A DNA stretch of 27,588 nucleotides, taken from positions 1-27,588 of the IMG/VR virus record IMGVR_UViG_3300025127_008157. The stretch is one strand, 5' to 3'. The position numbers were made by a program, and so were the translations under genes. The DNA comes from a virus. A model generated the notes under the pieces. That model was not told the DNA's origin, searched no databases, and saw only the letters and a program-made list of their open reading frames with translations. The first letter of the stretch is position 1. Every line of letters begins with the position of its first letter. This document shows, one piece after another, positions 2,493 through 27,067 of the stretch.

Positions 2493-2500
2493 AATTGTAA

Positions 2501-9747: not shown

Positions 9748-10600
9748 AAAAACTCACTATTTGTTTTGCCCAGCTTAATCGATTAAATTTTTGTACTTCT
9801 TTGTAACCTTTTTCAGCGATTTTTTTAGCCTCTTCAGGATTTTTTAGATAATAATTTATTTTTTGGTTTAGGTCTTCTGCATCTTTAAAAATAACGCAGT
9901 GCTCACCATCAATAAAAATATCTTCTCTGCCTGGCCAATCATCTGTGATTAAAAAACCTTTAGCAGCCATTATTTTATATACTCTATCAGATGCGCCATC
10001 CGAAGTACACATATTTAAATTAATTTTACTTTTTGAAACTTCTATTGAATGACTGTTAGAAAAAGCATTATTTATAACTTTTACTGGTACATCTAGTTTA
10101 GAAAGCAACTCTGCCCTGTTTCCATATATGTTGCCAATAAAGCTAGCATCATAAATTTGATCAACATCACGAGGCTTGTCAATAGTAGAATCAAACCCTT
10201 CACAAACATAAAAAGAGTTTTTGTTTATTTTAGTAGCATGCTCTAGTACATTTAACTTATCACAACAAAAGTAATGAACTAATTTAGTTTTATCTTTCAT
10301 TTCTTGATCATAATTTACCAACGCATCCATAAACCAAAGACAGGTGGTTGTTATATCACTAATTTTTTTAAAAACTTCTAAAGACACTACATTACATTTA
10401 CTAAAAACAACTAAATCAAATGCTCTTTGTTTGACCAAATAAACTAAATCTTTATCTCTGTATTCGTTGCCATGTATGGCTGCTTTTAGACGATAGTTAT
10501 AGCCTATAACATCATAACCTAAATCTTTGAAAGCAAATAATTGTGATAAATTAGTCGACTTACCTTCTTTGTCAAACACACCAACAAATAAAATTCTCAT
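9731..10600 (-). CDS. CgeB-like group 1 glycosyltransferase (289 aa)
   Basis: This is a GT-B type protein. It begins MRILFVGVFD with a Rossmann start and ends with the CgeB/glycosyltransferase group 1 arrangement: SKSKINLNMC (190-198), SDRVYKIMAAKGFLITDDWP (204-223), and EHCVIFKDAEDL (233-244), where a conserved Asp/Glu segment contacts the nucleotide sugar. CgeB-like proteins transfer sugars in spore coats, capsules and phages. The length is compact. The start at 10600 has a good AGAGG ribosome site four bases upstream. It is flanked by a radical SAM gene upstream (gap of 9 bases) and a GT9-like gene downstream. Donor and acceptor unknown. Confidence 0.75.
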   Translation of the reverse strand: MRILFVGVFDKEGKSTNLSQLFAFKDLGYDVIGYNYRLKAAIHGNEYRDKDLVYLVKQRAFDLVVFSKCNVVSLEVFKKISDITTTCLWFMDALVNYDQEMKDKTKLVHYFCCDKLNVLEHATKINKNSFYVCEGFDSTIDKPRDVDQIYDASFIGNIYGNRAELLSKLDVPVKVINNAFSNSHSIEVSKSKINLNMCTSDGASDRVYKIMAAKGFLITDDWPGREDIFIDGEHCVIFKDAEDLNQKINYYLKNPEEAKKIAEKGYKEVQKFNRLSWAKQIVSFYEQVK

Positions 10601-10609
10601 TCTGCCTCT

Positions 10610-11680
10610 CTAGATAAACTCATCGTTTACTTCAGGATTCTTAATTCTATTTAAATACTCGTTAATAATATGAGGTCGACACTTGTAGTTTCCACACGGC
10701 TCATGATTTAGCTTTGCTACTTTGTCAATTATTTTTTGTACTTGGCCACTAGTATGAATCTCTTCAAACGTCTGTTCATAGATATTTCCAAAGCTATAAT
10801 CTTTCTGATCATAGAATATATTACACCCATAACAACCGCCTTTAGCATCAATTAGTGTCAAAAAGTTATACGCATAACATTTTTTGTAACAGTAATTGTG
10901 GCTCTGACCAGGTATTTCTGGCATTTCCTCTAAATTTCTGCTTCTCACAGTTACGTAAAAATCATCCGTTGAGCGGTCTAGTAACCGCTGTCTTAGCTCA
11001 TTATCTGTTAAGCTATACAAAGTGGGGTTAGAGGCGCTTTTAGGATGATTGTGGTGTGGTTTAAACTGAACATTGTCAACGCCTACGTCTTTCATCAGAT
11101 CAGCGAATGCCTCCATTTCATGAATATTGTTTTCCATAACAATAAACTGCGCGCCAAGCTCAACATCTAGATTATGTTCTTTTTTGTACTTTGCTGCGGC
11201 GCGCATATTTCTTATAACACGATCAAAATCTTTTGATTTATGTATTTCACGATGTGTTTCTGCTGTAGCAGCATCGATACTAAACCTAATCCAAGCAAAG
11301 TAAGGCAAAAGCTGGTTTAAGCGTCTTTCATTTAATAAGCCACCATTGGTTGCCATGGACGTCTTGATGCCTCTACTGTGTGCAGCTTGAACAAACTTAT
11401 CCATATCTGGATGTAGTAGGGGCTCGCCTTCGCCAGCAAAGTATATTGATTTTACTCCAATATCTGCCATAGAATGTATGCCTCTAACTAAAACTTCTGT
11501 GTTTATCCTTACAACTCCGTGCGTAATCCAATCCACACTACAAAAGCTACAATGGTGCTGGCACCTGTTTGTTGGTCCGATCTCAACATGTAAAGGAGTC
11601 GCAGCCCCTGTTTTTTTCCAATGTGCTACCTCTTCTGGATAATACATTAATTTATGACTATCAACGTCTTTGATGCCCAT
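10610..11680 (-). CDS. Radical SAM protein with SPASM-like C-terminal cysteines
   Basis: Cys40, Cys44 and Cys47 form the CxxxCxxC that holds the SAM-binding 4Fe-4S cluster, followed by the FAGEGEPLLHPD segment that contacts SAM. After the TIM-barrel part, Cys264, Cys268, Cys283, Cys286, Cys329 and Cys334 make a second cysteine-rich region like SPASM or twitch domains, which bind auxiliary iron-sulfur clusters. Such enzymes modify peptides, sugars or aminoglycosides by radical chemistry. Within this operon a sugar-modifying reaction is plausible, for example on a 4-amino sugar as in the DesII deaminase, but a peptide-modifying or unrelated reaction cannot be excluded. It sits one base after the epimerase gene, whose last codons supply the GGGAG ribosome site. 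Confidence 0.85.
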   Translation of the reverse strand: MGIKDVDSHKLMYYPEEVAHWKKTGAATPLHVEIGPTNRCQHHCSFCSVDWITHGVVRINTEVLVRGIHSMADIGVKSIYFAGEGEPLLHPDMDKFVQAAHSRGIKTSMATNGGLLNERRLNQLLPYFAWIRFSIDAATAETHREIHKSKDFDRVIRNMRAAAKYKKEHNLDVELGAQFIVMENNIHEMEAFADLMKDVGVDNVQFKPHHNHPKSASNPTLYSLTDNELRQRLLDRSTDDFYVTVRSRNLEEMPEIPGQSHNYCYKKCYAYNFLTLIDAKGGCYGCNIFYDQKDYSFGNIYEQTFEEIHTSGQVQKIIDKVAKLNHEPCGNYKCRPHIINEYLNRIKNPEVNDEFI

Positions 11681-11681
11681 T

Positions 11682-12662
11682 TTATACTTCTCCCAGCCAA
11701 TACTCGACTAAATCTTTTAAAGTTTGTTCTATTGCTATAGATGGCTGCCAATTTAAAAAGTTTCTAACTTTTGTGTCATCTGGAATTTGAACCGGTATAT
11801 CAACTTTTCTAAAAAATTTAGGCTCTATCTCTAGCTTAACATCTTGTAAATTGTACATCTGTAGCATGCTATCTAGGTAGTACTGCATGGGATGTAAGTC
11901 GTTACCGGCAATATGAAATATTTCACCGCATTTTATATTGTCTTTATGAAACTCATTCATTAGTCTATAGTATACATCAACAACATCTCTAACATCAGCG
12001 ACAATTCTTTGTGACGTCATGTTACCGATTTTAATTACAGGCTCTTGTTGGCCCTTAATAATTTTAGCAATTTGGATTGCGTCTGATGATATAGAAAAAT
12101 TACTACCTCGACGTGGACCAGTGTGAGAAAAAGCCCTTGTTAGAAATGCTCTCAAGTCTGTATTGTGTGTTCTTTCTAAAACATACATATCAGCAACAGC
12201 TTTTGAAACACCATAAGGGTTATTAGGGTTGAACGGTGTAGTTTCATCAATTTTTGAATCAGCAGGACAGATACCATACACTTCTGGTGTTGAACAATTC
12301 ATCAGCACGCACAACGGCATGTTCTCAATAATCTCATCGCATATTCTAGCTGTGCCCAAGGCATTAGTTTTAGTTGCCAACAAAGGCGTTTTAAATGAAG
12401 ATGGTGGGTGAGCAAACGCCCCAAGATGAAACACTCCGTCAAACATATCATTTTCAAATATGTTTGTTATTGAGTCTAAATCTTCTAAATCACCATAAAC
12501 AAACTCAATTTTATTTAAATTTTCTTCTCCAACAATATTAACTATATCCCTACATGTGTCTAGGTTTCTTGCCATGGCAACAACTTCATCACCGCCTTCT
12601 AAAATTCTGTTAATCATATGCGGGCCAGCAAATCCTGTAGCACCAGTTACTAAATATCTCAT
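11682..12662 (-). CDS. NAD(P)-dependent sugar epimerase/dehydratase, GMD/RMD-like
   Basis: This is an extended short-chain dehydrogenase: cofactor motif GATGFAG (7-13), catalytic-type CSTPEVYG (123-130) with Thr125, and Tyr150/Lys154 in NPYGVSK. The segment RAFSHTGPRRG (176-186) resembles that of GDP-mannose 4,6-dehydratases and GDP-4-keto-6-deoxymannose reductases more than other branches. Those enzymes make or reduce the 4-keto-6-deoxy intermediate that a DegT aminotransferase can use. The length of 326 is normal. It shares an ATGA overlap with the aminotransferase gene, indicating coupled translation. The exact nucleotide sugar cannot be told from sequence alone. Confidence 0.85.
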   Translation of the reverse strand: MRYLVTGATGFAGPHMINRILEGGDEVVAMARNLDTCRDIVNIVGEENLNKIEFVYGDLEDLDSITNIFENDMFDGVFHLGAFAHPPSSFKTPLLATKTNALGTARICDEIIENMPLCVLMNCSTPEVYGICPADSKIDETTPFNPNNPYGVSKAVADMYVLERTHNTDLRAFLTRAFSHTGPRRGSNFSISSDAIQIAKIIKGQQEPVIKIGNMTSQRIVADVRDVVDVYYRLMNEFHKDNIKCGEIFHIAGNDLHPMQYYLDSMLQMYNLQDVKLEIEPKFFRKVDIPVQIPDDTKVRNFLNWQPSIAIEQTLKDLVEYWLGEV

Positions 12663-13612
12663 TGTAAATCCTTTAATTTTTCTACTATAAAATGTATGTC
12701 TGCCTTATTAACATCAGGACCAACTGGTAAATACATAATTTTTTTAGACATCTCATAACTTTTTGTTTGAGATACATCTAATAAAAATGGTGCGCATGAA
12801 CCAACAGGCTTAAACCCGTATCTCGCAGCTATATTTTGTTTTCTTAAATCGTCGACAATTTTATTATTATCTACTTTAATATCATAGACCCATGGCACAT
12901 CTCTTCTAGGCATGTGATATTTTTTAGCTATTAGCGAATCATATAAAGATTCGTTTTGTCGTCTTATTTTTATATTTTTATCTATCTCGCCTAAAGAATC
13001 AATTATTAAAGATGCCTGTGAATTAGTCATTCTGTAATTAAACCCGATTCGTTTATGCATGTAATTGTGCTCTTCCCCAAAAGACATACTTTTCATGTCT
13101 TTTACAATTTTTAAAAATTCTAAATCATCAGAAACAATGGCGCCGCCCTCTTCTCCACAAACTATTTTATTTCTATAAAAAGAGAAGCAACCTATATCAT
13201 AGCTTCCAACCATTTTATTGCCCCATTTACATCCATGTGCTTCAGCCGCATCTTCAATAATACGCAAATTATATTTTTTAGCTAGTTCAGAGACTGCGTC
13301 CATATTTACAACCCTTCCATAAACATGTGTGACCATGATAACTTTTGTTTTATATGTTATCTTTTTTTCTAGATCAATCAAGTCGATAAGTAGATCATCA
13401 CTGCAGTCAACGAATACCGGGTTAAGACGAGCATAATAAACCGCCCAAGCAGTAGCAATCATAGTAAATTGTGGTACAATAATTTCAGAATCTTTAGGAA
13501 GTTGAAGCGCTTCTAGAGCTAGATGAAGAGCGGCAGTGCCAGAGTTGACCGAAACACACCCTTCGGTACCTATATATTTTGAAAATTTGTTCTCTAACTC
13601 TTCAAATTTCAT
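12659..13612 (-). CDS. DegT/DnrJ/EryC1-type PLP sugar aminotransferase
   Basis: The protein has the DegT pattern: SVNSGTAALHLALEAL near the N-terminus, IIVPQFTMIATAWAV, EDAAEAHG (Glu120-Asp121, where the Asp contacts the PLP ring nitrogen) and CFSFYRNKIVCGEEGG with the PLP-binding Lys149. These enzymes place an amino group on a keto sugar-nucleotide, usually at C3 or C4. At 317 residues it is shorter than the usual 360-400. I chose the ATG at 13612 because it overlaps the stop of the upstream epimerase in TAATG; an ATG four codons earlier at 13624 is possible. Its neighbours are two dehydratase-type genes and a formyltransferase, which fits a 4-keto to 4-amino to 4-formamido sequence. Confidence 0.9.
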   Translation of the reverse strand: MKFEELENKFSKYIGTEGCVSVNSGTAALHLALEALQLPKDSEIIVPQFTMIATAWAVYYARLNPVFVDCSDDLLIDLIDLEKKITYKTKVIMVTHVYGRVVNMDAVSELAKKYNLRIIEDAAEAHGCKWGNKMVGSYDIGCFSFYRNKIVCGEEGGAIVSDDLEFLKIVKDMKSMSFGEEHNYMHKRIGFNYRMTNSQASLIIDSLGEIDKNIKIRRQNESLYDSLIAKKYHMPRRDVPWVYDIKVDNNKIVDDLRKQNIAARYGFKPVGSCAPFLLDVSQTKSYEMSKKIMYLPVGPDVNKADIHFIVEKLKDLQ

Positions 13613-14565
13613 TACCAATCCCATTCACTATTATTAGAGTAATAGTAATCTATTGTTTTCTTTAGGGCGTTTTCTAGAGATGTTGGTGTCTTTTTCCCGA
13701 TCGCATTATATAATTTTGTGTTATCAGACTGGAGATGCCAAATCTCCCATGGTCTTGCTCTTTTCTCATCAGTTTGTATTTCTACATTTTTATGGCCCAT
13801 TAGCTTGCCGATAAGTCTAGCAAGATCATAAATTTTTATACCACCTTCGCTTCCCATGTTGTAAACTTCGCCAAATTGACCTTTTTCTAAAAGCTCTACT
13901 GCCATACGTACAGCATCACCAGAATATTGAAAATCTCTAAACGAATTATTTCCTAATTTAATTACGCTTGTTTTATCTAGCTGACTAATAATTTCAGGAA
14001 TAACATATGCGTGCGTTTCTCTCTCACCAACACAATTAAATTGCCTCATTGCGATAGCAGGAACACCGGCCTCTCTCCAGCGAACCTGTACTAAACCATC
14101 AGCAGCTAGCTTGCTGACTCCATATGTAGAGTGCGCTGCGACAGGATCAGATTCAGATATCTTGCCTTTCATATCGCCATAGATTTCAGCAGAGGAAACC
14201 TGTAGCAATCCTTTTATATTTGCTTTTTGACATGCGTTAAGTACTCTTAAAACAGCCGTAGCATTAATATCAAAAAAATGCATTGGTCTTTCAAAGCATT
14301 CTGGAATGTATGGCTCAGCAGCATAATTAAAAACATACTCAATATCATGACTTATTAATATTTTTGCCAGTTCGTTTTCATCATCACGAATGTCAAACCA
14401 TATAAACTTTGCTTTTTCATGAATGTGTTTTTTAAGTCCCGTAATCAGATTGTCTAGCACAACAATATTACAATTACGATCATTAATTAAATGATCGACT
14501 AAGTGTGAGCCTAGAAACCCAGCACCACCAATAACACAGACATTAACATTTTCTATAGTTCTCAT
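13612..14565 (-). CDS. NAD-dependent sugar epimerase/dehydratase (UDP- or dTDP-sugar type)
   Basis: The cofactor motif GGAGFLG (13-19), the acidic residue at the end of the second strand (VVLDNL), QVSSAEIYG (122-130) and the catalytic pair Tyr148/Lys152 in TYGVSK define an extended short-chain dehydrogenase. The set resembles dTDP-glucose 4,6-dehydratases, UDP-glucuronate decarboxylases and UDP-GlcNAc/glucose epimerases; RQFNCVGERE is the substrate-side loop. Length 317 is normal. It begins 2 bases after the formyltransferase stop with AGAGGAA as ribosome site. It likely supplies one of the two keto or epimerised sugar-nucleotides of the block; which one is unknown. Confidence 0.85.
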   Translation of the reverse strand: MRTIENVNVCVIGGAGFLGSHLVDHLINDRNCNIVVLDNLITGLKKHIHEKAKFIWFDIRDDENELAKILISHDIEYVFNYAAEPYIPECFERPMHFFDINATAVLRVLNACQKANIKGLLQVSSAEIYGDMKGKISESDPVAAHSTYGVSKLAADGLVQVRWREAGVPAIAMRQFNCVGERETHAYVIPEIISQLDKTSVIKLGNNSFRDFQYSGDAVRMAVELLEKGQFGEVYNMGSEGGIKIYDLARLIGKLMGHKNVEIQTDEKRARPWEIWHLQSDNTKLYNAIGKKTPTSLENALKKTIDYYYSNNSEWDW

Positions 14566-14567
14566 TA

Positions 14568-15170
14568 TTATTCCTCTTTGTAATCAATATATATTTTTTT
14601 ACCTTTGTTGTTAAAGTAATATAATTGGTCTTTGCCTGGAAAATAAAAAGCTTTAACAAACCTAGTTAAATTTCTTGCCTTTTGTAGGTCTTTTTTCAAA
14701 TAACATTTACCTACATTTTTTCTTTGAGGTGTGGCAATATAGTCCTCAAATAGTAAATCACTATACCAATCTTTAAACATTTTAAAGATTATTTTTACGC
14801 CTTTTTCGTACAAGGAAAAAGCAGTGTCATGTTTAGATATCAAAAATTCTCTAATTTCAATAATATCTCCCGTATCAACACCCTGGTCAATCAAATGTAA
14901 AGTAATACCAAATTTGCTTTCTTGATTCAACAAAGCCCAAGTACATATTCCACTTCCTTTATACTCAGGCAACACGCCAGGATGAAAATTGTAACATTTT
15001 TTGCTTTTTAATATGTCAGCAGAAATTATTTTTTCATACATAACAGACAAAACGATGTCAGCTTCTTGCAAGCTATTAACCAACACAAAACCACTAGGAG
15101 TATTGTTGCGTGCCCACAGAATACATTGCTCACCGACTTCTCTAGATGTTGCTATAAAAACTTTTTTCAA
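14568..15170 (-). CDS. Formyltransferase, probably sugar N-formyltransferase
   Basis: This 200-residue protein keeps the catalytic part of the methionyl-tRNA formyltransferase/GART family: NFHPGVLPEYKGSGICTWAL with Asn61 and His63, then HLIDQGVDTGDII (92-104), whose aspartates complete the Asn-His-Asp site that moves the formyl group from N10-formyltetrahydrofolate. The N-terminal Rossmann part is reduced and the C-terminal tRNA-binding domain of Fmt is absent, so initiator tRNA is an unlikely substrate. With an aminotransferase next door, formylation of an amino-deoxy sugar is the best reading. The start codon is TTG at 15170, supported by AGGAG 8 bases upstream inside the end of the previous gene. 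Small size is shared by some phage and O-antigen enzymes. Confidence 0.85.
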   Translation of the reverse strand: MKKVFIATSREVGEQCILWARNNTPSGFVLVNSLQEADIVLSVMYEKIISADILKSKKCYNFHPGVLPEYKGSGICTWALLNQESKFGITLHLIDQGVDTGDIIEIREFLISKHDTAFSLYEKGVKIIFKMFKDWYSDLLFEDYIATPQRKNVGKCYLKKDLQKARNLTRFVKAFYFPGKDQLYYFNNKGKKIYIDYKEE

Positions 15171-15172
15171 TC

Positions 15173-16039
15173 TTATTGCTCCTGTAAATAATTTAAACGC
15201 TCAATCATAAATTTAACATTATCTTCTATCGTAGGATGCTGCTTACAAAAGTTTTCACATTCACTAATATCTAATTGTGGAGTATTATCCCATGTTTCTT
15301 TAATCACACGCTTAAAGTCTTCATAGCTATCATCACTAAAATATATGGCTCTGTCACCTAAATAATCTCTAGCACCCTCGTACACAGAGTCGCTAATAAC
15401 AGAAGCTTTTCCTAGCTTGTAACCTTCTAAAAGGCCCAAACCGCCAGTTGAAGTTTCATGATAATCTGTACACATAAAACTACATTCTGCTATGAGTTTG
15501 CGATATTGTTCTTCTGAAGCTCCATGATTTGGTGTTTTTAAAGGTATATCTAGTTCTTGACATGCTCTTTCAAGCCATCCATAGTTTTTGTCTGCTACAT
15601 AAGGCCTTATTGTTTTAAGAATATATCTATCATCTTTTATTTCATTATTATAGTCGAAAAATCTAGCCCACATTTTCATAAGCTTACACTTTTTAATATC
15701 GATGCCTTCTTCGCCCATTCTGATAATTACTTCATTTGAAATACACCACAACTCTTTACATTTTTTTAAATAATCTTTATACAATTGCCAATTATAACCA
15801 TGAGGGTTTGGAGCTGTCCATACTGTTTTATAAAAGTCTAACGTCAGACTTACAATTGGAATGCCTGGAAATGTACCATGGAACATGTGTACAAGCTCTA
15901 ACCCAGCTTGAGTTGTCATTAAAATAAAATCAGTATCCGGATGAATTCCATTATGATCTACTTTAACACCCTTAGATTCAAATACAGGTATAAGCGGTTC
16001 TACGTTTTGCGATGGGGGAGTTACGATAGATATTCTCAT
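15173..16039 (-). CDS. GT4-like glycosyltransferase (288 aa)
   Basis: The protein is a GT-B candidate. It begins MRISIVTPPS, has an acceptor-side half with HMFHGTFPGIPIVSLTLDFY, and a donor-side half with STGGLGLLEGYKLGKASVIS and GDRAIYFSDDSYEDFKRV, matching the ExxxxGxP and loading-loop region of group 1 glycosyltransferases in reduced form. No membrane segment is present, so it would be cytoplasmic. An ATGA overlap and AGAGGAA upstream link it to the GT9-like gene before it. Donor and acceptor are unknown; the assignment rests on the C-terminal half. Confidence 0.7.
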   Translation of the reverse strand: MRISIVTPPSQNVEPLIPVFESKGVKVDHNGIHPDTDFILMTTQAGLELVHMFHGTFPGIPIVSLTLDFYKTVWTAPNPHGYNWQLYKDYLKKCKELWCISNEVIIRMGEEGIDIKKCKLMKMWARFFDYNNEIKDDRYILKTIRPYVADKNYGWLERACQELDIPLKTPNHGASEEQYRKLIAECSFMCTDYHETSTGGLGLLEGYKLGKASVISDSVYEGARDYLGDRAIYFSDDSYEDFKRVIKETWDNTPQLDISECENFCKQHPTIEDNVKFMIERLNYLQEQ

Positions 16040-16926
16040 TTTGTTTCCTCTAGTTTTTTGTCAATGTTATGTATTATAAGATCCATATCAATAAAATTAG
16101 CAGTTTGTCCTTCTAAATATACAGCATTGGGATTGACCGGTTGCCAGTTTTTTGTTGTGTCAACCAAGGGATCATAAGCTGTTGAATATAAGCCAACCGT
16201 GGGGTGGTTAAAGGCAGAAGCAACCCATGGCATGCCAGAATCACAAGTTACAAGAAGGTCTGTGCTTAGCATCTTTTTACAGCTGTCAAAATACGTACCC
16301 CTCACAAAAGTAGTGTTTCTAATATGAGGCTGGTGCGGACCAGACAATTGATATACTTTATAACCTTTTTGACATAAATACTTTGCTATGTACTCTTGTT
16401 TTTTTATATTAACAGATCGTGTTCCGCCAGGCCATTTACTAGAAAATAAATGAATGGCAACTGTCTTTGGTTCTTTAACAACATCTTCTGGCATCTTTAA
16501 TTCTATTTTATTTGTCGATGCTTCCACACCTAACATAAGTGCGGTTTCCTCAACAAGGTGTCGATGCTTAGCCCAATCACTTTGTTCATGATACGGTTTT
16601 TCAAAAGGAAACATAGCATCAAAGCTTTGTTGCTTTATATAATCTAGATCTGATTGTGTTGGCCAATCATCATATCCTTGCCACACTTTAAAATCAATAA
16701 TATTTTTATGATAGTTATAAAAAAGAGGTTGAATATCTTTGTACTTGTCGCAAATAGCAAGAACAATTTTAGTTTCAGGATTATCTTCAATAAACTTTCT
16801 TAGGCCGGGTTCCTGCATGATGATATCACCATATTGACCACCCATGCCAAAGCATACTTTATCGTAAGGAGGCTGTCTATTTTCATACTTAAATTTATCT
16901 AAATTTAGTTTTGAATTAATACTCAT
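16036..16926 (-). CDS. GT9-like glycosyltransferase (296 aa)
   Basis: It carries the two halves of heptosyltransferase-like enzymes: VCFGMGGQYGDIIMQEPGLR near the N-terminus, like the GxGDxI start of GT9, and VAIHLFSSKWPGGTRS plus LLVTCDSGMPWVASAFNHPT toward the C-terminus, where GT9 members have TxDSGxxHxAAA. Here Trp replaces the usual His in that motif. The family moves heptose from ADP-heptose onto LPS core. It begins immediately after the cupin gene stop (TAAATG) with an AAAGGAG site. Its position beside the heptose kinase, nucleotidyltransferase, phosphatase and cupin supports a heptose-like donor. Confidence 0.78.
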   Translation of the reverse strand: MSINSKLNLDKFKYENRQPPYDKVCFGMGGQYGDIIMQEPGLRKFIEDNPETKIVLAICDKYKDIQPLFYNYHKNIIDFKVWQGYDDWPTQSDLDYIKQQSFDAMFPFEKPYHEQSDWAKHRHLVEETALMLGVEASTNKIELKMPEDVVKEPKTVAIHLFSSKWPGGTRSVNIKKQEYIAKYLCQKGYKVYQLSGPHQPHIRNTTFVRGTYFDSCKKMLSTDLLVTCDSGMPWVASAFNHPTVGLYSTAYDPLVDTTKNWQPVNPNAVYLEGQTANFIDMDLIIHNIDKKLEETK

Positions 16927-17286
16927 TTAATCTCCTTTTTCAATTCTGTATGAATCACTATCAAAATGTTGTGTTGAAAATTCAAACAACTCTGTATCTT
17001 CAAGTGCTATCATTTGATGTCGAAGCCCAACATAAACATGAAAGTTGTCGCCTCGCTCTAATATAACTTCAGAAGCATTGTTTAAATCGTCATCGTCTGA
17101 ATACTTTACCATAATTTTGCCAGACTGTATATAGAACACTTCATCTTTTATTTTGTGATAATGCCAAGAGCATTTTTTACCTTTGACAAAATATAAAAGC
17201 TTTCCACAATATTTGTCGTTATTAACAATCCACTTTTCAAAGCCCCAGCCTTTAGGAACAAAGTTCATTTTTAAAGAATTCTTCAT
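16927..17286 (-). CDS. Single-domain cupin, sugar-phosphate isomerase type
   Basis: Cupin motif 1 is complete: Gly36, His42, His44, Glu49, Gly56. Motif 2 (GDNFHVYVGLRHQ) gives Gly79 and His90, so four metal ligands are visible. The WGFEKWIVNNDKYCGKLLYF lead-in resembles the cupin part of mannose-6-phosphate isomerase/mannose-1-phosphate guanylyltransferase proteins, and such single cupins are often found in surface-sugar clusters. It probably isomerises or binds a sugar phosphate; the reaction is not proven. I chose the ATG at 17286, giving 119 residues, because AAAGGA stands 9 bases before it; a longer frame to 17346 has no ribosome site and would cut far into the HAD gene. It overlaps that gene by 35 bases. 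Confidence 0.8.
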   Translation of the reverse strand: MKNSLKMNFVPKGWGFEKWIVNNDKYCGKLLYFVKGKKCSWHYHKIKDEVFYIQSGKIMVKYSDDDDLNNASEVILERGDNFHVYVGLRHQMIALEDTELFEFSTQHFDSDSYRIEKGD

Positions 17287-17584
17287 CTTTGCTTCCTTTA
17301 TCGTCAACGTATATATCGCCGGCTGGCTTACCAAGATACAAAGCATGAAATTTTACACCCCAGTTAGTCAGTTGTTCGTGTGTAAGACTCCAAAACTCTG
17401 CTTCAGCTAGAGATATATTATTTTTAAATCTACCCATTCCTCTAGCTGTGTGAAAAATTATCTTATTGCCTTCTTCATATAAAGAATTTATTTTTTCTAT
17501 TCTTTCTTTTATTGGAACAGCCTTGTTATATTCTCCATTTGTTAAAGAGCAAATAGTGCCGTCGATATCAAACACGTAAGTCAT
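17252..17584 (-). CDS. Small HAD-family phosphatase
   Basis: HAD motifs are all present in a 110-residue core: DIDGT with nucleophile Asp6 and acid/base Asp8, FHTAR (Thr46), GKPAGD (Lys86) and IYVDD (Asp94, Asp95). There is almost no cap domain, as in small capsule- and LPS-cluster phosphatases, and it lacks the Cys-rich zinc loop of GmhB. In a heptose pathway it may take the bisphosphate to the monophosphate, standing in for GmhB, or it may act on another sugar phosphate. The ATG has a perfect AAGGAGG ribosome site and lies 17 bases inside the end of the kinase gene, tying the two together. Confidence 0.85.
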   Translation of the reverse strand: MTYVFDIDGTICSLTNGEYNKAVPIKERIEKINSLYEEGNKIIFHTARGMGRFKNNISLAEAEFWSLTHEQLTNWGVKFHALYLGKPAGDIYVDDKGSKDEEFFKNELCS

Positions 17585-18338
17585 CTATATCCTCCTTAGT
17601 CAAAGTATAGGTACCAAACTTTTGTACTGCTAATCGAGCACACTTGTTGGCAAAATCAATTGATTTTTCAAAACATCTTGTATGTAAATACTTAAACACT
17701 AAAGCTGCCATAAAAGTATCACCTGCGCCGCAGACATCGAACACATCACAACGTTCTGTTGAGAATGTTTTGTTATTCCACAACGCACCGTCGGCACCTT
17801 TAGTTACAATTAGCTGGTAAGTGTTTGGAAACACTTTAGACTTTTCATATTCAGATTGATTAATTTTGATAATACAATCTTCAAATATGCTTAAATCAGT
17901 TTTTTTAGAATCTACAAAAACAGTAACGTTGCTAGCTTTTGCTTTGGATAAGATAATTTTTACATTAGTGCTATCTATAAAGCCTTTATCGTAGTCTGAT
18001 ATAACAACTGCGTCCAAATCAGAAAATTTAATTTTTTCTAACTGTGTCTTAGTACAAGGCTCAAGCTTTAAATTTTCACCAAAATCTGTTCTTAAAAGAT
18101 GTTGTCTTGTTTTTAAATCAACAAATCTTTCTTTTCTAATAATTTTTTTATTTGTGATAGAGTCAACAGACAGACTAAACGCTATTAAATTATTGCGCAC
18201 GTTTAAGCTCATTCCATCTCTATTTTCTGTATGGTCATGCTTTAAAACTGGCACGGGAGCTTCTGGACTTAACCTATCACAGTGTCCATAATGATAAACG
18301 TCTAGACAAGCATCTCCAACTAAAAGTACATTAAACAT
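17568..18338 (-). CDS. PfkB-family kinase, HldE/RfaE N-terminal (heptose-7-phosphate kinase) type
   Basis: The stretch RLSPEAPVPVLK (22-33) is the RfaE signature. Other landmarks are VISDYDKGFI (112-121), VTKGADGALW (178-187) and CGAGDTFMAAL (203-213) with the catalytic Asp207 of the PfkB family. HldE-type kinases phosphorylate heptose 7-phosphate at C1 on the way to ADP-heptose. The protein is only 256 residues, against about 320 for HldA-type kinases. Compared with the family, the GGAANVA block is replaced by DGMSLNV and about 40 residues of the lid region following it are missing. Catalytic residues are intact, so it may be a compact active form with altered substrate range. It is followed by the phosphatase and preceded by the nucleotidyltransferase. 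Confidence 0.85.
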   Translation of the reverse strand: MFNVLLVGDACLDVYHYGHCDRLSPEAPVPVLKHDHTENRDGMSLNVRNNLIAFSLSVDSITNKKIIRKERFVDLKTRQHLLRTDFGENLKLEPCTKTQLEKIKFSDLDAVVISDYDKGFIDSTNVKIILSKAKASNVTVFVDSKKTDLSIFEDCIIKINQSEYEKSKVFPNTYQLIVTKGADGALWNNKTFSTERCDVFDVCGAGDTFMAALVFKYLHTRCFEKSIDFANKCARLAVQKFGTYTLTKEDIDDLRV

Positions 18339-18348
18339 TGTTATTTTC

Positions 18349-18732
18349 TTAAGCCTTTAAAACTTTGCTAGTTGAATATCCTTCTACAAAATTGAATATT
18401 CTTACCTCAGCGATATCATGACCAACAACATCTTCTTTTCTGTAGTCACCGCCTTTAACAATTATATCAGGCTTCAATTGTTTAATTAAATTATAAGGTG
18501 TTTTTTCATCAAAAATTATAACACGATCAACATATTTACAGCACTCTAAAGCATATTTTCTATCGCATTGCTTAAAGAAAGGCCTATTATCACCTTTTAA
18601 ATCTTTAACGCTTCTATCACTATTCAGGCCTACAACAACTGTTGATCCTTGACTTTTACAAAATTCAAGAAGTTTAAAGTGACCTTTATGTAATATATCA
18701 AAACAACCATTTGTAAAAACTAATTTAGACAT
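18349..18732 (-). CDS. Nucleotidyltransferase, HldE/RfaE C-terminal (heptose-1-phosphate adenylyltransferase) type
   Basis: The 127-residue protein is a complete small cytidylyltransferase-like domain: FTNGCFDILHKGHFKLL with the HxGH pair His15/His18, VVGLNSDRSVKDLKG, KGGDYRKEDVVG and a final GYSTSKVL in place of the YSTT motif. In E. coli this domain is fused to the kinase as HldE; here it is a separate gene, as in HldC-type organisms. It would join a sugar 1-phosphate to AMP to give ADP-heptose; glycerol-3-phosphate cytidylyltransferase is a related alternative, but the neighbouring RfaE-type kinase favours heptose. A weak AGG site precedes the ATG, with a 21-base gap from the upstream gene. 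Confidence 0.85.
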   Translation of the reverse strand: MSKLVFTNGCFDILHKGHFKLLEFCKSQGSTVVVGLNSDRSVKDLKGDNRPFFKQCDRKYALECCKYVDRVIIFDEKTPYNLIKQLKPDIIVKGGDYRKEDVVGHDIAEVRIFNFVEGYSTSKVLKA

Positions 18733-18753
18733 TAGTAACCTATAAAATTCACT

Positions 18754-19608
18754 TTAGGTTCCAACACACAATGTTTTAAACATGCTAAGAGCCTTATGAG
18801 TTCTGCTCTGTAACTCTTCTAACAAAAAGTCGCCAGAAAGATTAAATAATTCTTTTTCGCTGTACATGCCAATCAAGCCTGGTTTTGTCAGCACTTGGCA
18901 ATTTAATATTTTTGACTCTGCTACCAGGCGACAAAATGTTTCTAAAACTTGTGGCATGAATAATATCTTTTCGTATTGAGATACGTTTAATAAAAAGTCG
19001 TTTGGCTGGGCTGGCTCAATTAAAGAATATCTCATATTTTTCATTTCACAATACCTTACAGCCTCCGCAGTACCCTTTGTAGGGTTTTTAGAATTTACAA
19101 TTCCTAAGCTTTTTGTTTTTTTATTATTTAAATTATTTCGTAAAAAAGAAAACTTTTTGTCAGTCCACAAGCTGGTTCCAATACTAATAACATTAGATAT
19201 GTTTAAGTTATCTTCTAATACTTGTCGACAAATTTCACTTAAAACAACAATTTTATTAGAACTTTTATAAAAATCAATATTAGCTAAATGTTCGTGTGGT
19301 ATTTTAAAATTTAAATATTTTGACGGATCTCGATTTGCTACATACTTGTGATCATGCTCATAAATAATATAGTTATTATTTTGAATCATATATCGCTTAC
19401 ACTCTTCAGTAAGGCCAATAAAATTGCCAACTATAAAAACACTATCTTTGTTTTTATGTAGTAGTTCAATACTACAAGCTGATGAGTGAACTTTAGCTAC
19501 ACACAAGTTATTATTCTTTAAATATGATATTAGAACTGAATCATTTGATTCTGCACCTCCCAGCAAATCATCACTAAAAAAATCAGCTATAAAAATTACA
19601 TTTTTCAT
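18754..19608 (-). CDS. GT4-like glycosyltransferase (284 aa), divergent
   Basis: The N-terminus MKNVIFIADFFSDDLLGGAE carries the GGxE turn common in GT4 acceptor domains. The C-terminal part LGIVNSKNPTKGTAEAVRYC and MPQVLETFCRLVAESKILNC matches the P-x-x-E-x-F-x-x-x-x-x-E pattern of GT4 donor sites. It is short, and the usual long donor domain is trimmed. It overlaps the preceding GT4 gene by an ATGA. The evidence is reasonable but not strong; a glycosyltransferase-fold protein with another role is possible. Confidence 0.65.
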   Translation of the reverse strand: MKNVIFIADFFSDDLLGGAESNDSVLISYLKNNNLCVAKVHSSACSIELLHKNKDSVFIVGNFIGLTEECKRYMIQNNNYIIYEHDHKYVANRDPSKYLNFKIPHEHLANIDFYKSSNKIVVLSEICRQVLEDNLNISNVISIGTSLWTDKKFSFLRNNLNNKKTKSLGIVNSKNPTKGTAEAVRYCEMKNMRYSLIEPAQPNDFLLNVSQYEKILFMPQVLETFCRLVAESKILNCQVLTKPGLIGMYSEKELFNLSGDFLLEELQSRTHKALSMFKTLCVGT

Positions 19609-20879
19609 ATAATTTCAATTTCATTTAGCTTTTCAAGCCACTCTTTTCTTTCTGCTAGCCCTTTTTCTTCAGCGATTGCTTCTAGCTGATCAGTGTATTG
19701 TTTATAAATCTTTGAAGCTTCAAAATCTTCGCAAACCCAATCTTGTAGTTTTTTAGCTCTCTTTTTAAATCTTCCATAATCTCTGTAAACTTCATCTAAA
19801 TTCATTTTAATTGAGCCATCTTCTGGAAAAGCCCACATAGAATCTTGTACAATCACATCCTTCCAAAGTACCTCAGCTGGCACAGGTCTTAAACTATAAG
19901 ATATTCGCGAAAACATGTGCTTCTTTTTGTACTTGCCATTTTTTTGTTTTTCTTTCATATACAAAAAATCTAGATGACCAGACCAATCAGTTGCTATAAC
20001 TGGCAGGCCATAATATGCTGCTTCAAACAAGGGCAAACCATAGCCCTCGCCATGAGTAGTAGAAACTAAAGCTTTAACTTTTGAGTGCGTATACAAGCCG
20101 GCCATTTGCTTATCTGACAAATATCCGTGTAGAAGATAAACTTTACATTTTTTTTCTCCAGCTTTTTGAACTGCTTGGTTAAACAACCCTCTAGTCATAA
20201 AACGATCTGGAATAGAGTTTTTAACTGAGTTGGCTTTAACGATTAATCCAACATTCTCATTATCTCTAAATTTATCGATAAAATTTAAAATAAGCTGTTC
20301 AGCATTTTTTCTCGGACTTAACTGAGCAACTGCTAAAAAATTAAAATCAGTTTCTAAATCTAGATCTAAATTTTCAGGTTCTGCTTTTACAACTGGATAG
20401 TGGATGTAGTCAATTTGTGTTTGTACTCTATAGTCAACTTTTTCACCAGTGTCTGTATTTGTAGCTTCGTACACTGTATTTACATAGCTGTCTCTAGAAA
20501 ACTCACTGATGGTTAAAATTTTATCCATGATAAAAGATTTTTCAATCCACACTGGAGCAACTTTAGTAGTCTCGATACCAGCGGTAACACCAATGTTAAC
20601 CTCAGCAATCTTTTCCCACTCATTAGGAATTGTTACTTGTAAAGACATATCGAAAGTACCACCTTCACTAGCGTAACCTAATGTTTTCTTTACGCATGAA
20701 TCAATCCACTGTCTTTCTTCATTATCTTCCCAAATCCAACTAGTCTGTCCCCAAACTATTGGCTGGATGTAAATATCAAAAAGATCTTCTTTTGTGCGCA
20801 AAGCGCGTAGAACAGTTCTCGCATGATGACCATAGCCAGTCTGTGTTAACAGAGGGCCTTTCAATAATACCTTTATCAT
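19605..20879 (-). CDS. GT4 family glycosyltransferase (424 aa)
   Basis: A full-length GT-B enzyme. The start MIKVLLKGPLLTQTGYGHHA has the Gly-rich loop of the acceptor half; FLAVAQLSPRKNAEQLILNF (181-200) is the inter-domain strand that begins the donor half; LLHGYLSD (249-256) and THGEGYGLPLFEAAYYGLPV (275-294) give the Ex7E pair Glu278 and Glu286. These retaining enzymes use nucleotide-diphosphate sugars. A TAATG overlap ties it to the preceding GT4 gene, which is its likely partner in building the same glycan. Confidence 0.88.
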   Translation of the reverse strand: MIKVLLKGPLLTQTGYGHHARTVLRALRTKEDLFDIYIQPIVWGQTSWIWEDNEERQWIDSCVKKTLGYASEGGTFDMSLQVTIPNEWEKIAEVNIGVTAGIETTKVAPVWIEKSFIMDKILTISEFSRDSYVNTVYEATNTDTGEKVDYRVQTQIDYIHYPVVKAEPENLDLDLETDFNFLAVAQLSPRKNAEQLILNFIDKFRDNENVGLIVKANSVKNSIPDRFMTRGLFNQAVQKAGEKKCKVYLLHGYLSDKQMAGLYTHSKVKALVSTTHGEGYGLPLFEAAYYGLPVIATDWSGHLDFLYMKEKQKNGKYKKKHMFSRISYSLRPVPAEVLWKDVIVQDSMWAFPEDGSIKMNLDEVYRDYGRFKKRAKKLQDWVCEDFEASKIYKQYTDQLEAIAEEKGLAERKEWLEKLNEIEII

Positions 20880-22132
20880 TATTTAACCTCTAGTAGTTGC
20901 CAAGTTTTATAATTTTTACGAGTTTCCCAAGAGCCAAGATTCTCATGAATACTTAAAAGACATTTTTCCCATCTTTCTATGTATTTGTCAAAACTATAAT
21001 TATTTTTAACATGTTCTGCGCCGGCAGAGCCTAGAGATTTTCTTTCTTCTGATGACATCTCATACATTTTTAATAATGCATTTAAAAGATCTTCGTTATC
21101 AAAATGGTCTTCATAAATGTAAGGTACATTTTGAGATCCGATAACAGGCTTTGCTTTACATTCCAAGCCAATGCCAAACCAATTTTTGCCATCAGTAACC
21201 TGCTCTTGTAAGCCGCCTGTCATATTAACGATAATTGGTGTCTCGCATGAAAGAGACTCTAACGTTGCCAAGCCAAAACCTTCTGCGTCAGAAACATTAA
21301 CAGTCACATCTGCCATGTTGTACATAACGGCTAAATCATGAAATTCAACTTTTTGAGTTGAAAACCTAACTTCGCCATTTGTTAAACCTAAATCTGCGAT
21401 GTTTGCAATAAGGTCCGGCCCATTAGGGTCTTTTGGCTCTGTATGCATCACCAAGCATGCTTTATCATGTCCAACCTTGTCTAAAAACTGTTTAAATACA
21501 TGAATTAACGTGGCTGGTTGTTTTCTTTTAGCATTTCTATTATTCCAGAATACAACAAATTTATCATCTAAACCTTTTTGCTTTCTAAAATTTTGAACTT
21601 GTTCTTCTGGCAAAGGCCTAAAAAATGTTGGATTTACAGCATGAGGAAGATACTCACACCGCACATCAGGCGACACATTTTTTACAATGTCATAAGTGAC
21701 TTTCGAAATACACGCCACATGATCACATGAGTCATACCATACTTTATTAAACTTAGGATAAGGATAATTATCCCAAACATGGTAATATACCATTGGAATT
21801 AAAGATCTAATCTCGTCTTCAATCTCCCAAAGCCAACCATAAAATCTAGGATCAGTCATAAACCAAAGCATATCTGGTTTTTCAGTTCTGATCAAAGATC
21901 TAATCATATCTTGACTACCATATCCATCAACTGGATACATAATTAGATCATCTCCCCATTTCTCAGTTTTTTGAGGATTGTAATCATGATGCTTAATAGC
22001 GCCAGCCAAGCATAAGAACTTAAACTTTCCAGTTTGTAACATGCCTTCTATCATGTAGCGTGTTTGTGTACCCACGCCAGAAGGGGAAAAAGGATGGTCT
22101 GAAATAACCAAAACTTTAATTTTTTTACTCAT
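20879..22132 (-). CDS. GT4 family glycosyltransferase (417 aa)
   Basis: A full-length GT-B enzyme and the first gene of the sugar block. VLVISDHPFSPSGVGTQTRY (8-27) is the acceptor-side Gly-rich loop, FVVFWNNRNAKRKQPATLIH (192-211) opens the donor half, and SDAEGFGLATLESLSCETPI (281-300) holds the Ex7E pair Glu284 and Glu292. ELLEVK-type basic ending follows a helix. The ATG is preceded by AGG. It lies only 6 bases after the nuclease gene, so the sugar block is joined to the replication-type genes upstream without a visible promoter or terminator between them. Confidence 0.88.
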   Translation of the reverse strand: MSKKIKVLVISDHPFSPSGVGTQTRYMIEGMLQTGKFKFLCLAGAIKHHDYNPQKTEKWGDDLIMYPVDGYGSQDMIRSLIRTEKPDMLWFMTDPRFYGWLWEIEDEIRSLIPMVYYHVWDNYPYPKFNKVWYDSCDHVACISKVTYDIVKNVSPDVRCEYLPHAVNPTFFRPLPEEQVQNFRKQKGLDDKFVVFWNNRNAKRKQPATLIHVFKQFLDKVGHDKACLVMHTEPKDPNGPDLIANIADLGLTNGEVRFSTQKVEFHDLAVMYNMADVTVNVSDAEGFGLATLESLSCETPIIVNMTGGLQEQVTDGKNWFGIGLECKAKPVIGSQNVPYIYEDHFDNEDLLNALLKMYEMSSEERKSLGSAGAEHVKNNYSFDKYIERWEKCLLSIHENLGSWETRKNYKTWQLLEVK

Positions 22133-23895: not shown

Positions 23896-24166
23896 CTTCC
23901 TCTCTCGCTAGTTTCATACCGGCATCGACATCCACTAAAGCCTGTTCATAACCTCTAACCCAGTTTTCTTCTGCTAAAGCTAATACAAACTGTGGAAATT
24001 CTTTTGCCATTACGTCAATAATCATTTCTACTGTAACATTCATATCTTCAGGGTTTAATTTTTCGCCAACATATTCAACTAACATATTTTTTAAATCGTT
24101 TTCTGGTTCAACCATTTGATCTAAAATAGGGTTTTTTTCATATTCTTTTGAGTTTATTGCTTCCAT
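23858..24166 (-). CDS. Unknown acidic protein (102 aa)
   Basis: An acidic, mostly helical protein with ENWVRGYEQALVDVDAGMKL in the C-terminal half and a Cys-rich end (CKLCED). It starts in a TAATG overlap with the PhoH stop, so translation is likely coupled. No motif or fold is recognised. Confidence 0.7.
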   Translation of the reverse strand: MEAINSKEYEKNPILDQMVEPENDLKNMLVEYVGEKLNPEDMNVTVEMIIDVMAKEFPQFVLALAEENWVRGYEQALVDVDAGMKLAREEDEKKRSCKLCED

Positions 24167-25473
24167 TATAATACCTTTGATGCTAAAGTTGCAACCTTTG
24201 ATCTCTCGCCCTTCTTAAGTGTTATATGGCCAGAAAGATCGTAGGTTTTAAATTTTTCTACAGCGTATGACAATCCATTTGATGTTGCGTCAATATAAAC
24301 ATTGTCAATCTGTTCGATGTCGCCAGTTAACACAATCTTTGTATTTTCTCCGACACGTGTAATTATAGTCTTAAGTTCGTGAGTTGTTAAGTTTTGCGCC
24401 TCATCAATAATCATAAAACCGTTTGATATTGATCTACCACGAATATAAGTAAGAGCCTCAACCTGAATTGTTCCATTCTCAAAAAACATATCCATACTGT
24501 CTCTTTTGCCATTCATCAGAAACTCAATATTATCTTGGATGGGCATCAACCAAGGCATCATTTTTTCTTCCATCGTGCCTGGAAGATAGCCAATATCTTT
24601 TCCTAGTGGCTGTACAGGACGAGACACAACTAGTTTCTTGTATTGCTCCTGATCTAAGACCTGTTCTAGGCCCGCTGCGATAGCAAGCAGGGTCTTGCCA
24701 CAACCTGCGGCTCCAATAAGCGTAACGATAGGTATACTAGGGTCCATAAGCATATTAAAAGCAAACATTTGCTCCTTGTTACGAGGACGACAACCCCACA
24801 CACCTTTTTTGTAATCAACCAATTTTTTAATTGGTGTTGTTTTAGATTCAAATTTAGCCAAAGCAGTCTTTTTCTCATTTGTGCTGGACACCAGCATAAT
24901 AAATTCATTTGGTTGAAAATTGGTTTGCTCGTCGTCTAGGTATATTTCTTCACCTTCATAAAAACGATTAACAATCTGATCGTCAACAAGATGCTCTGTA
25001 TAGCCAACGTATAGTTCACTTTGATCTTCAATAATCTTTGCCGGCTCGTAATCTTCAGTTAGCATCTCTAGAGAGTCGCACTTAACTCTCATATTAATAT
25101 CTCTTGTAACTAAGATAATTTTTCTTTTTGGATTTGCAACTTGTTCGCTTAGAGCAGTAGCGATTATTTGATTGTCTGCGCTTTGTACGTCACAACCAAT
25201 TGGCATCTGGTCATAATTAAATCCTTTAACAGATAATATGCCTAGGCCTTTATCTATTCGGACACCTTTATGAAGATTTCCTTTAGATCTTAGTTCATCT
25301 AAAATTCTAATTGTATTTCTAGCATTAAGACCAACACCATCTTGACGTTTTTTGTGTTTATCAATCTCGTCGAGCACTTTTAAAGGGATAACAATATCAT
25401 TATTTTTATACTCATAAATTGAATTTGAGTTGGTTAAAAACACGTTCGTATCCAGTATGTAAATTTTTTTCAT
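24166..25473 (-). CDS. PIN-PhoH fusion ATPase
   Basis: Residues 1-130 are a PIN domain, with metal-binding candidates Asp8, Glu36, Asp100 and Asp125, and residues 215-435 are a PhoH ATPase with Walker A GAAGCGKT (254-261) and Walker B MIIDEAQN (354-361) plus LTGDIEQID (382-390). The fusion is the PhoH2 type, in which an RNase-like PIN domain is linked to an RNA helicase-like ATPase. PhoH genes are very frequent in marine phages; the phosphate link in the name is not reliable. It is the first gene of the 25.5-kb minus-strand block and lies 33 bases from the divergent plus-strand protease gene. AGAGAG lies before the ATG, and a TATAAATA box on the same strand lies 44 bases upstream. Confidence 0.92.
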   Translation of the reverse strand: MKKIYILDTNVFLTNSNSIYEYKNNDIVIPLKVLDEIDKHKKRQDGVGLNARNTIRILDELRSKGNLHKGVRIDKGLGILSVKGFNYDQMPIGCDVQSADNQIIATALSEQVANPKRKIILVTRDINMRVKCDSLEMLTEDYEPAKIIEDQSELYVGYTEHLVDDQIVNRFYEGEEIYLDDEQTNFQPNEFIMLVSSTNEKKTALAKFESKTTPIKKLVDYKKGVWGCRPRNKEQMFAFNMLMDPSIPIVTLIGAAGCGKTLLAIAAGLEQVLDQEQYKKLVVSRPVQPLGKDIGYLPGTMEEKMMPWLMPIQDNIEFLMNGKRDSMDMFFENGTIQVEALTYIRGRSISNGFMIIDEAQNLTTHELKTIITRVGENTKIVLTGDIEQIDNVYIDATSNGLSYAVEKFKTYDLSGHITLKKGERSKVATLASKVL

Positions 25474-25506
25474 CTTAACTCTCTGTTCAAAAACTATTTA
25501 AGACAT

Positions 25507-26217
25507 ATGAATCGTTTATTTATATTATTTTTTGTTTTGGCTACCAGTTTCATAATAAATAGTTGTGCCGCACAAACTAATATAAATAAGTCTATGACGA
25601 ATGTTAAAAAGTCTATTGTAAAAATAGAAACGTGGGCTAGACTTGGTGCATGCGATGAAGAAGCAATGTCCTGTGGGGGCCTTACTTTAATATCTTCTGG
25701 CACAGGTGCTGTAATACTTTATGGTGGCAAAAAAGCAGTGCTAACTGCTGCTCACGTTTGTAAAGATGACAGACTAAGACAGATGGTTGCTGCAGCGGCT
25801 GGTGAAGTAGTGCTAAAAGCAATTGACAGAAACAACAAACAATATCGTATTGAGATAATGAAAGCAAATGATCAATATGATATATGCGTTCTTAAGCCGG
25901 CAGGTAGGCTACTTGAGCCTCCACACATTAGATTATCCAAAAAGATGCCTGAGTATGGTGAAGAAGTTTATAACTTAGCCGCTCCATCAGGCATTATTGA
26001 CGGAGAAATGGTGCCTATATTTCGTGGGAATTATCATGGAATTTCCAACGGCGTCGCTTTCTATAGTGTTCCAGCGATCGGGGGTTCTTCTGGAAGTCCA
26101 ATTTTAAATGTAAAAGGTGAACTTATAGGCGTACTTCACTCTGTACACTATAAATTTCATCATATTACACTAGCAACTTCGTATCCAGTAACTTGGAACT
26201 TTATTAAATTACCTTAA
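25507..26217 (+). CDS. Lipoprotein trypsin-like serine protease
   Basis: This is the only plus-strand gene in the window. Residues 1-19 are a lipoprotein signal peptide (hydrophobic core FILFFVLATSFII) ending in the lipobox-like INSC with Cys20, so the protein should be lipid-anchored outside the inner membrane. The rest is a chymotrypsin-fold protease: VLTAAHVC (His83), YDICVLK (Asp125) and IGGSSGSPIL (Ser195), giving a complete triad. Four further cysteines (49, 56, 85, 127) might form disulfides. No PDZ domain is present, so it is not a full HtrA. It could damage or modify host envelope proteins, or protect the infected cell. The start at 25507 is fixed by the signal peptide; AAGA is the only ribosome-like sequence before it. 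Confidence 0.85.
   Translation: MNRLFILFFVLATSFIINSCAAQTNINKSMTNVKKSIVKIETWARLGACDEEAMSCGGLTLISSGTGAVILYGGKKAVLTAAHVCKDDRLRQMVAAAAGEVVLKAIDRNNKQYRIEIMKANDQYDICVLKPAGRLLEPPHIRLSKKMPEYGEEVYNLAAPSGIIDGEMVPIFRGNYHGISNGVAFYSVPAIGGSSGSPILNVKGELIGVLHSVHYKFHHITLATSYPVTWNFIKLP
25517..25524 (-). promoter_or_regulatory. T4-type late promoter box candidate for PhoH
   Basis: The minus strand reads TATAAATA here, identical to the T4 late promoter -10 consensus recognised by gp55, and a gp55-like gene lies in this window. Transcription would start near 25507, leaving about 33 bases of leader before the PhoH ATG. However, five copies of this octamer on both strands were found in the window, about what an AT-rich sequence would give by chance, and this one sits in the first codons of the protease gene. 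Position alone makes it notable. Confidence 0.3.
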
Positions 26218-26418: not shown

Positions 26419-26694
26419 TTAAAACTTAAGCAAATTTATATGCTCTATTCCGTGAAAAATATTTTCTGAAATAGATCTCATGGCAGTTACAGCAATATCT
26501 AAATTTGTATACTTGCCACAATACTTGTCTGGGTATACGTGTGTTACATATTCTACTTTTATAGATTCTTTAGGATGACAATCTGTTAAACCAAGATCTG
26601 TATACTTTCTTTCTATCCACCCAAGACACATTCCATCTATCCATATATAAAATATATTTGCGTTGATAGAGTGTGCTTTTACTTTATAATTCAT
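26419..26694 (-). CDS. Unknown protein (91 aa)
   Basis: A 91-residue protein with a beta-rich N-terminus (ANIFYIWIDGMCLGWIERKY) and a helix near the end (IAVTAMRSISENIFHGI). No motif is recognised. It overlaps the zinc-ribbon gene by ATGA, so the two are translationally coupled and may work together. Confidence 0.65.
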   Translation of the reverse strand: MNYKVKAHSINANIFYIWIDGMCLGWIERKYTDLGLTDCHPKESIKVEYVTHVYPDKYCGKYTNLDIAVTAMRSISENIFHGIEHINLLKF

Positions 26695-26951
26695 TCACCA
26701 AAGCCTAACTTTTTAGTTTTTTTACTTTCTTCTTTCTTTTTTCGAAACTCTTCAAATTGAGAGATTTCTACTATGTTTGGATATGATGTTTTATAATTGA
26801 TAGTGATAAGCCCTCTTAATTTTGATGGAGCAACACTATCGATAAATTTAACTTGTATATTTCCACACTCGCACCCTAAATTGTTATGATCATGATTGAT
26901 ATCAGATGCAATCATCTTTGTTCCACATTCAACGCATTCAATCGTAGTCAA
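26691..26951 (-). CDS. Small zinc-ribbon protein with TTG start
   Basis: Cys6 and Cys9 (CVEC) with Cys27 and Cys29 (CEC) form a likely zinc-binding knuckle; His20 and His22 lie between them. The rest holds a beta segment and a Lys-rich helix (FEEFRKKKEESKKTKK), consistent with nucleic acid or protein binding. The start is TTG, supported by AAAGGA with 8 bases of spacing. It begins 39 bases after the tRNA 3' end. Confidence 0.65.
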   Translation of the reverse strand: MTTIECVECGTKMIASDINHDHNNLGCECGNIQVKFIDSVAPSKLRGLITINYKTSYPNIVEISQFEEFRKKKEESKKTKKLGFGE

Positions 26952-26990: not shown

Positions 26991-27067
26991 TGGTTGGCTC
27001 GGTGGGACTTGAACCCACGACTACGACCTTATAAGAGCCGCGCTCTAACCTGCTGAGCTACGAGCCA
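26991..27067 (-). tRNA. tRNA-Ile (anticodon UAU)
   Basis: The cloverleaf closes fully: acceptor stem TGGCTCG/CGAGCCA, D stem GCTC/GAGC, anticodon stem CGGCT/GGTCG with G-U pairs, anticodon loop CTTATAA, and T arm GTGGG-TTCAAGT-CCCAC. The anticodon TAT reads the AUA isoleucine codon, which is used freely in these AT-rich genes and is often poorly served in hosts. Discriminator A and CCA are encoded in the DNA. The 5' end lies directly after the stop codon of the 56-aa ORF. Confidence 0.93.

Follow-up and report, generated by a model that had tools for sequence, protein, structure and literature searches.

A predicted lipid-anchored trypsin-like protease paired with phoH in uncultured T4-like phages

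A trypsin-like serine protease with a lipobox was found encoded divergently beside phoH, at one fixed genomic spot, in a widespread and apparently uncharacterised family of uncultured T4-like phages. Comparisons of the two genes indicate that the protease has been inherited vertically, as a single-copy companion of phoH, throughout a deep phage group, i.e. that it is an old and fixed part of these genomes. The explanation that we favour overall, with moderate confidence, is that the product would be an envelope-tethered endoprotease of narrow specificity, made in the infected cell, whose likeliest purpose would be exclusion.

The window (i.e. the whole stretch of DNA analysed, a virus record of 27,588 bases) contains an open ORF on the plus strand at positions 25507-26217 that starts with ATG and encodes 236 amino acids. 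This is the sole plus-strand ORF of >130 amino acids in the window. To its left lies phoH2 (PIN domain and PhoH ATPase; 24166-25473, minus strand), with the start codons of the two genes 33 bp apart, and to its right are two further ORFs (26419-26694 and 26691-26951, both minus) and a tRNA-Ile (26991-27067, minus strand). The initial annotation had described a lone gene on the opposite strand between minus-strand clusters, and this arrangement was confirmed, as phoH and the two ORFs to the right are all on the minus strand. The protein matched Pfam Trypsin_2 (PF13365) over residues 65-209 (9.9e-15, 56 bits with a cut-off of 27.6), with only protease families among its Pfam matches, and PHROG 9683 'protease' over residues 74-216 (1.8e-07). 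Membership in the trypsin-like peptidases (PF13365) was assigned on a profile score above the curated cut-off together with the presence of both the triad and the trypsin fold.

The triad motifs of the window protease are TAAH83VC, YD125IC and GGSS195GSP, and the catalytic residues are encoded on the plus strand at 25753-25755 (His83), 25879-25881 (Asp125) and 26089-26091 (Ser195). The nucleophile had been named Ser195 in chymotrypsin numbering and is also residue 195 of the window protein. Conservation was examined in 93 distinct family members, where distinct means not identical and some rows are near-copies. His83 was present in all 93, a count that is partly by construction, as is that for Cys85 below, since some loci were found via the pattern TA[GA]HVC. 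Asp125 was likewise present in 93 of 93 and Ser195 in 92, the exception (L054) ending at the contig end before the serine. The Trypsin_2 match, the triad and the structural model all agree with the earlier proposal of a serine protease with a complete His-Asp-Ser triad.

An AlphaFold2 model of the window protease, built from a 32-member alignment (A2) that left out the cut L054, had a pLDDT of 94.3 and a pTM of 0.87 as a single chain. The best solved match to this model in Foldseek was HtrA1 (4.0e-13), and alignment with VIA-align gave a Z of 24.7 and an rmsd of 2.5 over 191 residues for HtrA1 (3tjn_B) and a Z of 24.1 and an rmsd of 2.9 over 190 residues for DegS without its PDZ domain (2qf3_C). 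The top chains in a profile search of solved structures were HtrA1, DegP-like and HtrA3, and overall the closest solved folds were the protease domains of HtrA1, DegS, DegQ and DegP. The window protease shares with the HtrA/Deg proteins (DegS, DegP) a trypsin-type fold with an H-D-S triad, whereas it has only ~15-20% identity to them, carries a lipobox in place of a lasting transmembrane anchor and belongs to a family with H-x-C and D-x-C cysteines. DegS is also membrane-tethered and faces the periplasm. A further difference is the C-terminal PDZ domain, which was not found in the window protease by Pfam, in the model or in the structural alignments. No room is left for one, as the protease domain extends to the end of the protein (the last helix spans 226-234 of 236 residues and the structural alignments reach residue 236). 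The protein was not filed as a member of HtrA because this defining domain is missing; the model suggests that it works like an HtrA-type protease, outside the HtrA family proper. These closest folds would be consistent with a role in envelope quality control, i.e. action in place of DegP/DegS during infection, either removing misfolded envelope proteins or setting off the host envelope stress response, but the lack of a PDZ domain and a fast divergence (described below) that is unlike a general housekeeping protease make this role unlikely.

The N-terminus of the window protein is a predicted type II signal peptide (MNRLFILFFVLATSFIINS, then C20AAQ) that occupies residues 1-19 (25507-25563, plus strand), has the lipobox I-N-S-C20 and is conserved in the family. 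Cys20, encoded at 25564-25566 on the plus strand, is the predicted lipid-modified first mature residue and is followed at +2 by Ala, not Asp. This Cys was aligned in 92 of the 93 distinct members, with Ile in the exception (L147). A strict lipobox rule (i.e. a charge-free hydrophobic core, a small residue at -1 and a positive n-region) was passed by 86 of 93 distinct members, with start codons for 33 rows chosen to yield a signal peptide wherever several starts were possible, as compared to 2 of 781 control ORFs, which were taken from the rest of the same loci with a minimum length of 150 codons and include spurious ORFs. Six of the seven misses still show a lipobox by eye, and the +2 residue was never Asp in the 86 members that passed the rule. 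By the strict rule, the lipobox is conserved well above chance, in line with the initial annotation of a lipoprotein.

Two pairs of cysteines were also conserved. Cys85 (H-x-C; 25759-25761, plus strand) and Cys127 (D-x-C; 25885-25887, plus strand) were each conserved in all 93 distinct members; these invariant residues, placed two residues past the catalytic His and Asp, are likely to form a disulfide. A second disulfide is expected between Cys49 and Cys56 (25651-25674, plus strand) because both were kept in 86 of 93 members and both were missing in the same seven. These predicted disulfides suggest a location in the periplasm, which the two pairs would fit. The protease had been described as surface-anchored; the envelope location is supported by the lipobox and the cysteine pairs, whereas the surface side is not, as an outer-membrane anchor facing the periplasm would be equally compatible. 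The envelope location and the chemistry first proposed are probably right.

Relatives of the locus were collected in several scans. Two scans of IMG/VR yielded 16 further contigs, i.e. 17 close loci with the window. The protease was divergent beside phoH in 17 of 17, at a distance of 30-37 bp using the start that gives a signal peptide, although its presence is by construction in these loci, which were found via the protease or its alignment. A less biased sample of 39 loci was obtained by searching with PhoH only, and the protease was upstream on the opposite strand in 24 and missing in 15. Among the latter, L055 and L058 have no upstream DNA and L059 is a distant PhoH. In the other 12, which do have upstream DNA, no match to the protease profile was found beside phoH, and among the upstream genes listed for these loci the long ORFs have the same orientation as phoH. 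These 12 loci indicate that the protease is dispensable in related phages. Three more scans, one of which contributes the best 80 of 125 relatives, produced 92 loci with 60 new distinct sequences, of which 51 were divergent beside phoH, eight were without phoH in the fetched stretch and one was at a contig edge. In total, 84 of the 93 distinct members (33 and 51) have the protease at the phoH-divergent place. Other genes were observed around phoH in these loci. In L006, a SpoU-type RNA methylase gene (10584-11243) lies on the other strand with its 3' end overlapping the 3' end of the protease by ~145 bp; this methylase cluster (c9) was present in nine loci and was not found in the window. The same contig has an adenylosuccinate synthetase near phoH (12469-13530; PF00709, 1.2e-83), whose cluster (c10) was also present in nine loci.

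Inheritance of the pair was assessed with phylogenies of both genes. A maximum-likelihood phylogeny was built from 43 distinct PhoH sequences, leaving out L055, L058 and L059 and 10 duplicate phoH rows; in it, a single branch separates the 34 with the protease from the nine without it (support 99/95; 0 of 500 shuffles as low). The protease tree, from which the cut L054 was left out, gave the same main groups as the phoH tree. Pairwise identities of protease and PhoH were correlated over 32 genomes (r 0.92; reached by 0 of 9999 permutations), with the protease being much less conserved, i.e. a mean identity of 28% where PhoH had 59% and of 49% where PhoH had 76%. Among 15 large records, 13 had one match each and two had none. 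One of these matches, in G008, was weak and different (6.0e-8), as this record is without the phoH-linked protease and the match is a diverged Trypsin_2 protein elsewhere (L072:2806-3537; 3.8e-15) that has a lipoprotein-like N-terminus (LLSC) but lacks the H-x-C and D-x-C cysteines. A chaperonin (Cpn60) segment (L072:17-844) lies ~2 kb from this gene. The pairing of phoH and protease is ancestral, given its occurrence in the close loci and in the loci found with PhoH only.

The initial annotation had regarded the gene as looking like a moron, a separately expressed gene acting on the envelope. If moron is taken to mean an accessory gene gained on its own by this phage, the isolated opposite-strand position and a candidate promoter element of its own would fit such a history, but comparison of presence and absence in related phages revealed no patchy, independent distribution, a single branch dividing the phoH tree. 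Together with the co-inheritance with PhoH at r 0.92 and the shared position in 84 of the 93 members, this makes a moron highly improbable, on evidence that does not reach the deepest origin of the protease gene.

The phages carrying the family, which we presume from the sample numbers to be marine, were typed by their capsid gene. Of the 11 large records searched, nine had a match to the T4-type major capsid protein (Gp23, PF07068). The protease was 77-104 kb from gp23 in all eight records with both, G008 being left out as its match lies outside the family, and the gene is therefore not in the capsid cluster. The initial annotation had named a conserved virion component encoded with structural genes as a finding that would refute its reading, and this was not what was observed. 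These distances bear on whether the protein could be a virion component, carried by the particle and acting at entry, rather than a product acting within the infected cell. Some phages do carry envelope-active enzymes, an indirect point in favour of this reading. Against it stand the separation from gp23, the location on the strand opposite to the surroundings and the lipoprotein signal, which would divert the protein from particle assembly, and we consider a virion component very unlikely.

The short space between the two divergent genes contains a candidate promoter element. The heptamer CTATTTA (25494-25500, plus strand) is a copy of CTANTTA, which precedes the start codon by 4-8 nt in all 17 loci of the window clade as compared to an expectation of 0.012 per upstream stretch, these loci being related and hence not independent. 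Only one of 16 more distant members had the element. By eye, the sequence ACTAGT, which is the same on both strands, was inside CTANTTA in eight of the 17 loci; the window copy lacks this symmetry. In bacteria, pseudo-symmetric bidirectional promoters have been reported (PMC12825309, PMC10268837). CTANTTA could act as a -10 element for both the protease and phoH. A promoter upstream of gp23 was sought for a comparison of expression timing and none was clear.

The gene string to the left of phoH was also annotated. On the minus strand, positions 8102-22132 of the window are occupied by successive genes for sugar nucleotides and glycosyltransferases, i.e. a phage-borne surface-glycan cluster, of which the far part varies between relatives. 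This string encodes nucleotide-sugar epimerases, an aminotransferase, a radical SAM protein, a formyltransferase-like protein and a heptose-type nucleotidyltransferase, alongside several glycosyltransferases. Where relatives extend far enough to the left of phoH, glycosyltransferase-like genes are again seen there (clusters c0 and c5). Judging from gene content, envelope or glycan remodelling is a theme of the region. A fatty acid hydroxylase-like gene was also observed in a phage gene string (L008:12347-12859; PF04116, 2.8e-09), with its cluster (c15) in four loci. Further left in the window, positions 1047-6172 contain two large ORFs of 481 and 1223 amino acids, neither of which was matched in PHROG, Pfam or NCBIfam within the limits applied; for the larger one, a relative is present in L016.

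A mechanism can be proposed from these observations. An infected Gram-negative cell would make the protease as an exported serine endoprotease, transcribed divergently from phoH at the stage of host takeover, and signal peptidase II would cleave before Cys20. The lipidated protein would stay in the envelope and, having no Asp at +2, would be sorted to the outer membrane, as the E. coli rule has it for lipoproteins without Asp at this position. The catalytic domain would lie in the oxidising periplasm, held by its disulfides, and would cut a few host envelope proteins and not unfolded proteins at large. A narrow substrate set is suggested because PDZ domains are absent and the protease has evolved much faster than phoH, although the faster divergence also fits weak constraint. 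Cleavage would disable envelope proteins used as receptors or entry factors by later phages, leading to superinfection exclusion and keeping progeny off the dead host. Also counted in favour of this explanation as a whole are the genes for sugars and glycosyltransferases that share the gene string. Its envelope-protease part is quite probable, and the disabling of receptors or entry factors of later phages is a tentative proposal for its purpose.

The main rivals of exclusion as a purpose are quality control, discussed above, and help with lysis. For the latter, an outer-membrane-tethered protease would cut lipoproteins or other tethers between the outer membrane and peptidoglycan late in infection, helping breakage of the envelope. 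The location and the lipid anchor would suit this function, and outer-membrane lipoproteins do act in phage lysis, e.g. the Rz1-type spanins; however, the partner gene was phoH in 17 of 17 close loci and no holin, endolysin or spanin family was detected among the scanned window proteins, a search that small ones could escape. A function in lysis or release is accordingly rated as improbable. Exclusion, in turn, has a parallel in Llp of T5, a phage lipoprotein that blocks a receptor. Both would be phage-encoded lipoproteins made inside the infected cell, whereas Llp is a small, non-enzymatic blocker and the window protein is a protease. A fuller version of the exclusion proposal, which we regard as speculative and rather doubtful, is that the family strips chosen host envelope proteins from a lipid anchor during infection, so that exclusion would be by proteolysis and not receptor blocking, as a core-genome function of a large uncultured T4-like group that is tuned in each clade to the envelope proteins of the hosts and coupled to phoH in the window clade by the near-symmetric promoter element.

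Known relatives were sought in several collections. Nine family members searched by tblastn against 50,697 phage records had no convincing homologue, the best weak match (3e-4, 22% identity) being to a Staphylococcus phage record without annotation. In bacterial genomes, no relative was found in two scans with short exact peptide patterns, which would miss distant ones. PHROG 9683 (category other) was matched by 31 of 32 A2 members at E values up to 1e-3, but the match is modest and covers the protease core only, and the function in the library is just 'protease'. In PADLOC, several systems were matched through their trypsin-type domains (best 2.9e-08); these matches were taken as generic and a defence-system reading was set aside. 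Among the literature listed, titles and the starts of abstracts yielded no lipid-anchored phage protease. A trypsin-like protease is noted in T4-like phages of Rhizobiaceae (PMC10783043). Sm_phiM9_102 of the Sinorhizobium phage phiM9 resembles the family in belonging to a T4-like phage, in its Trypsin_2 annotation, as a lone opposite-strand gene and in having an N-terminal hydrophobic stretch, but differs in lacking the lipobox and the H-x-C and D-x-C cysteines and in adjoining gp23, not phoH. It was rejected as a family member for lack of a lipobox and a match to the family profile at only E 0.072. In phiM9 the gene divergent from phoH (L060:47410-48761) encodes an RpoE-like sigma factor and not a protease. 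As PHROG 9683 shows, sequences of phage proteases of the general kind were already known.

A single-copy, probably lipid-tethered protease that is so deeply conserved suggests that there is an envelope step of infection that is perhaps hidden in cultured models. The family may offer a handle on remodelling of the host envelope by uncultured T4-like phages, and its substrate, once known, would help to find the hosts of these phages.
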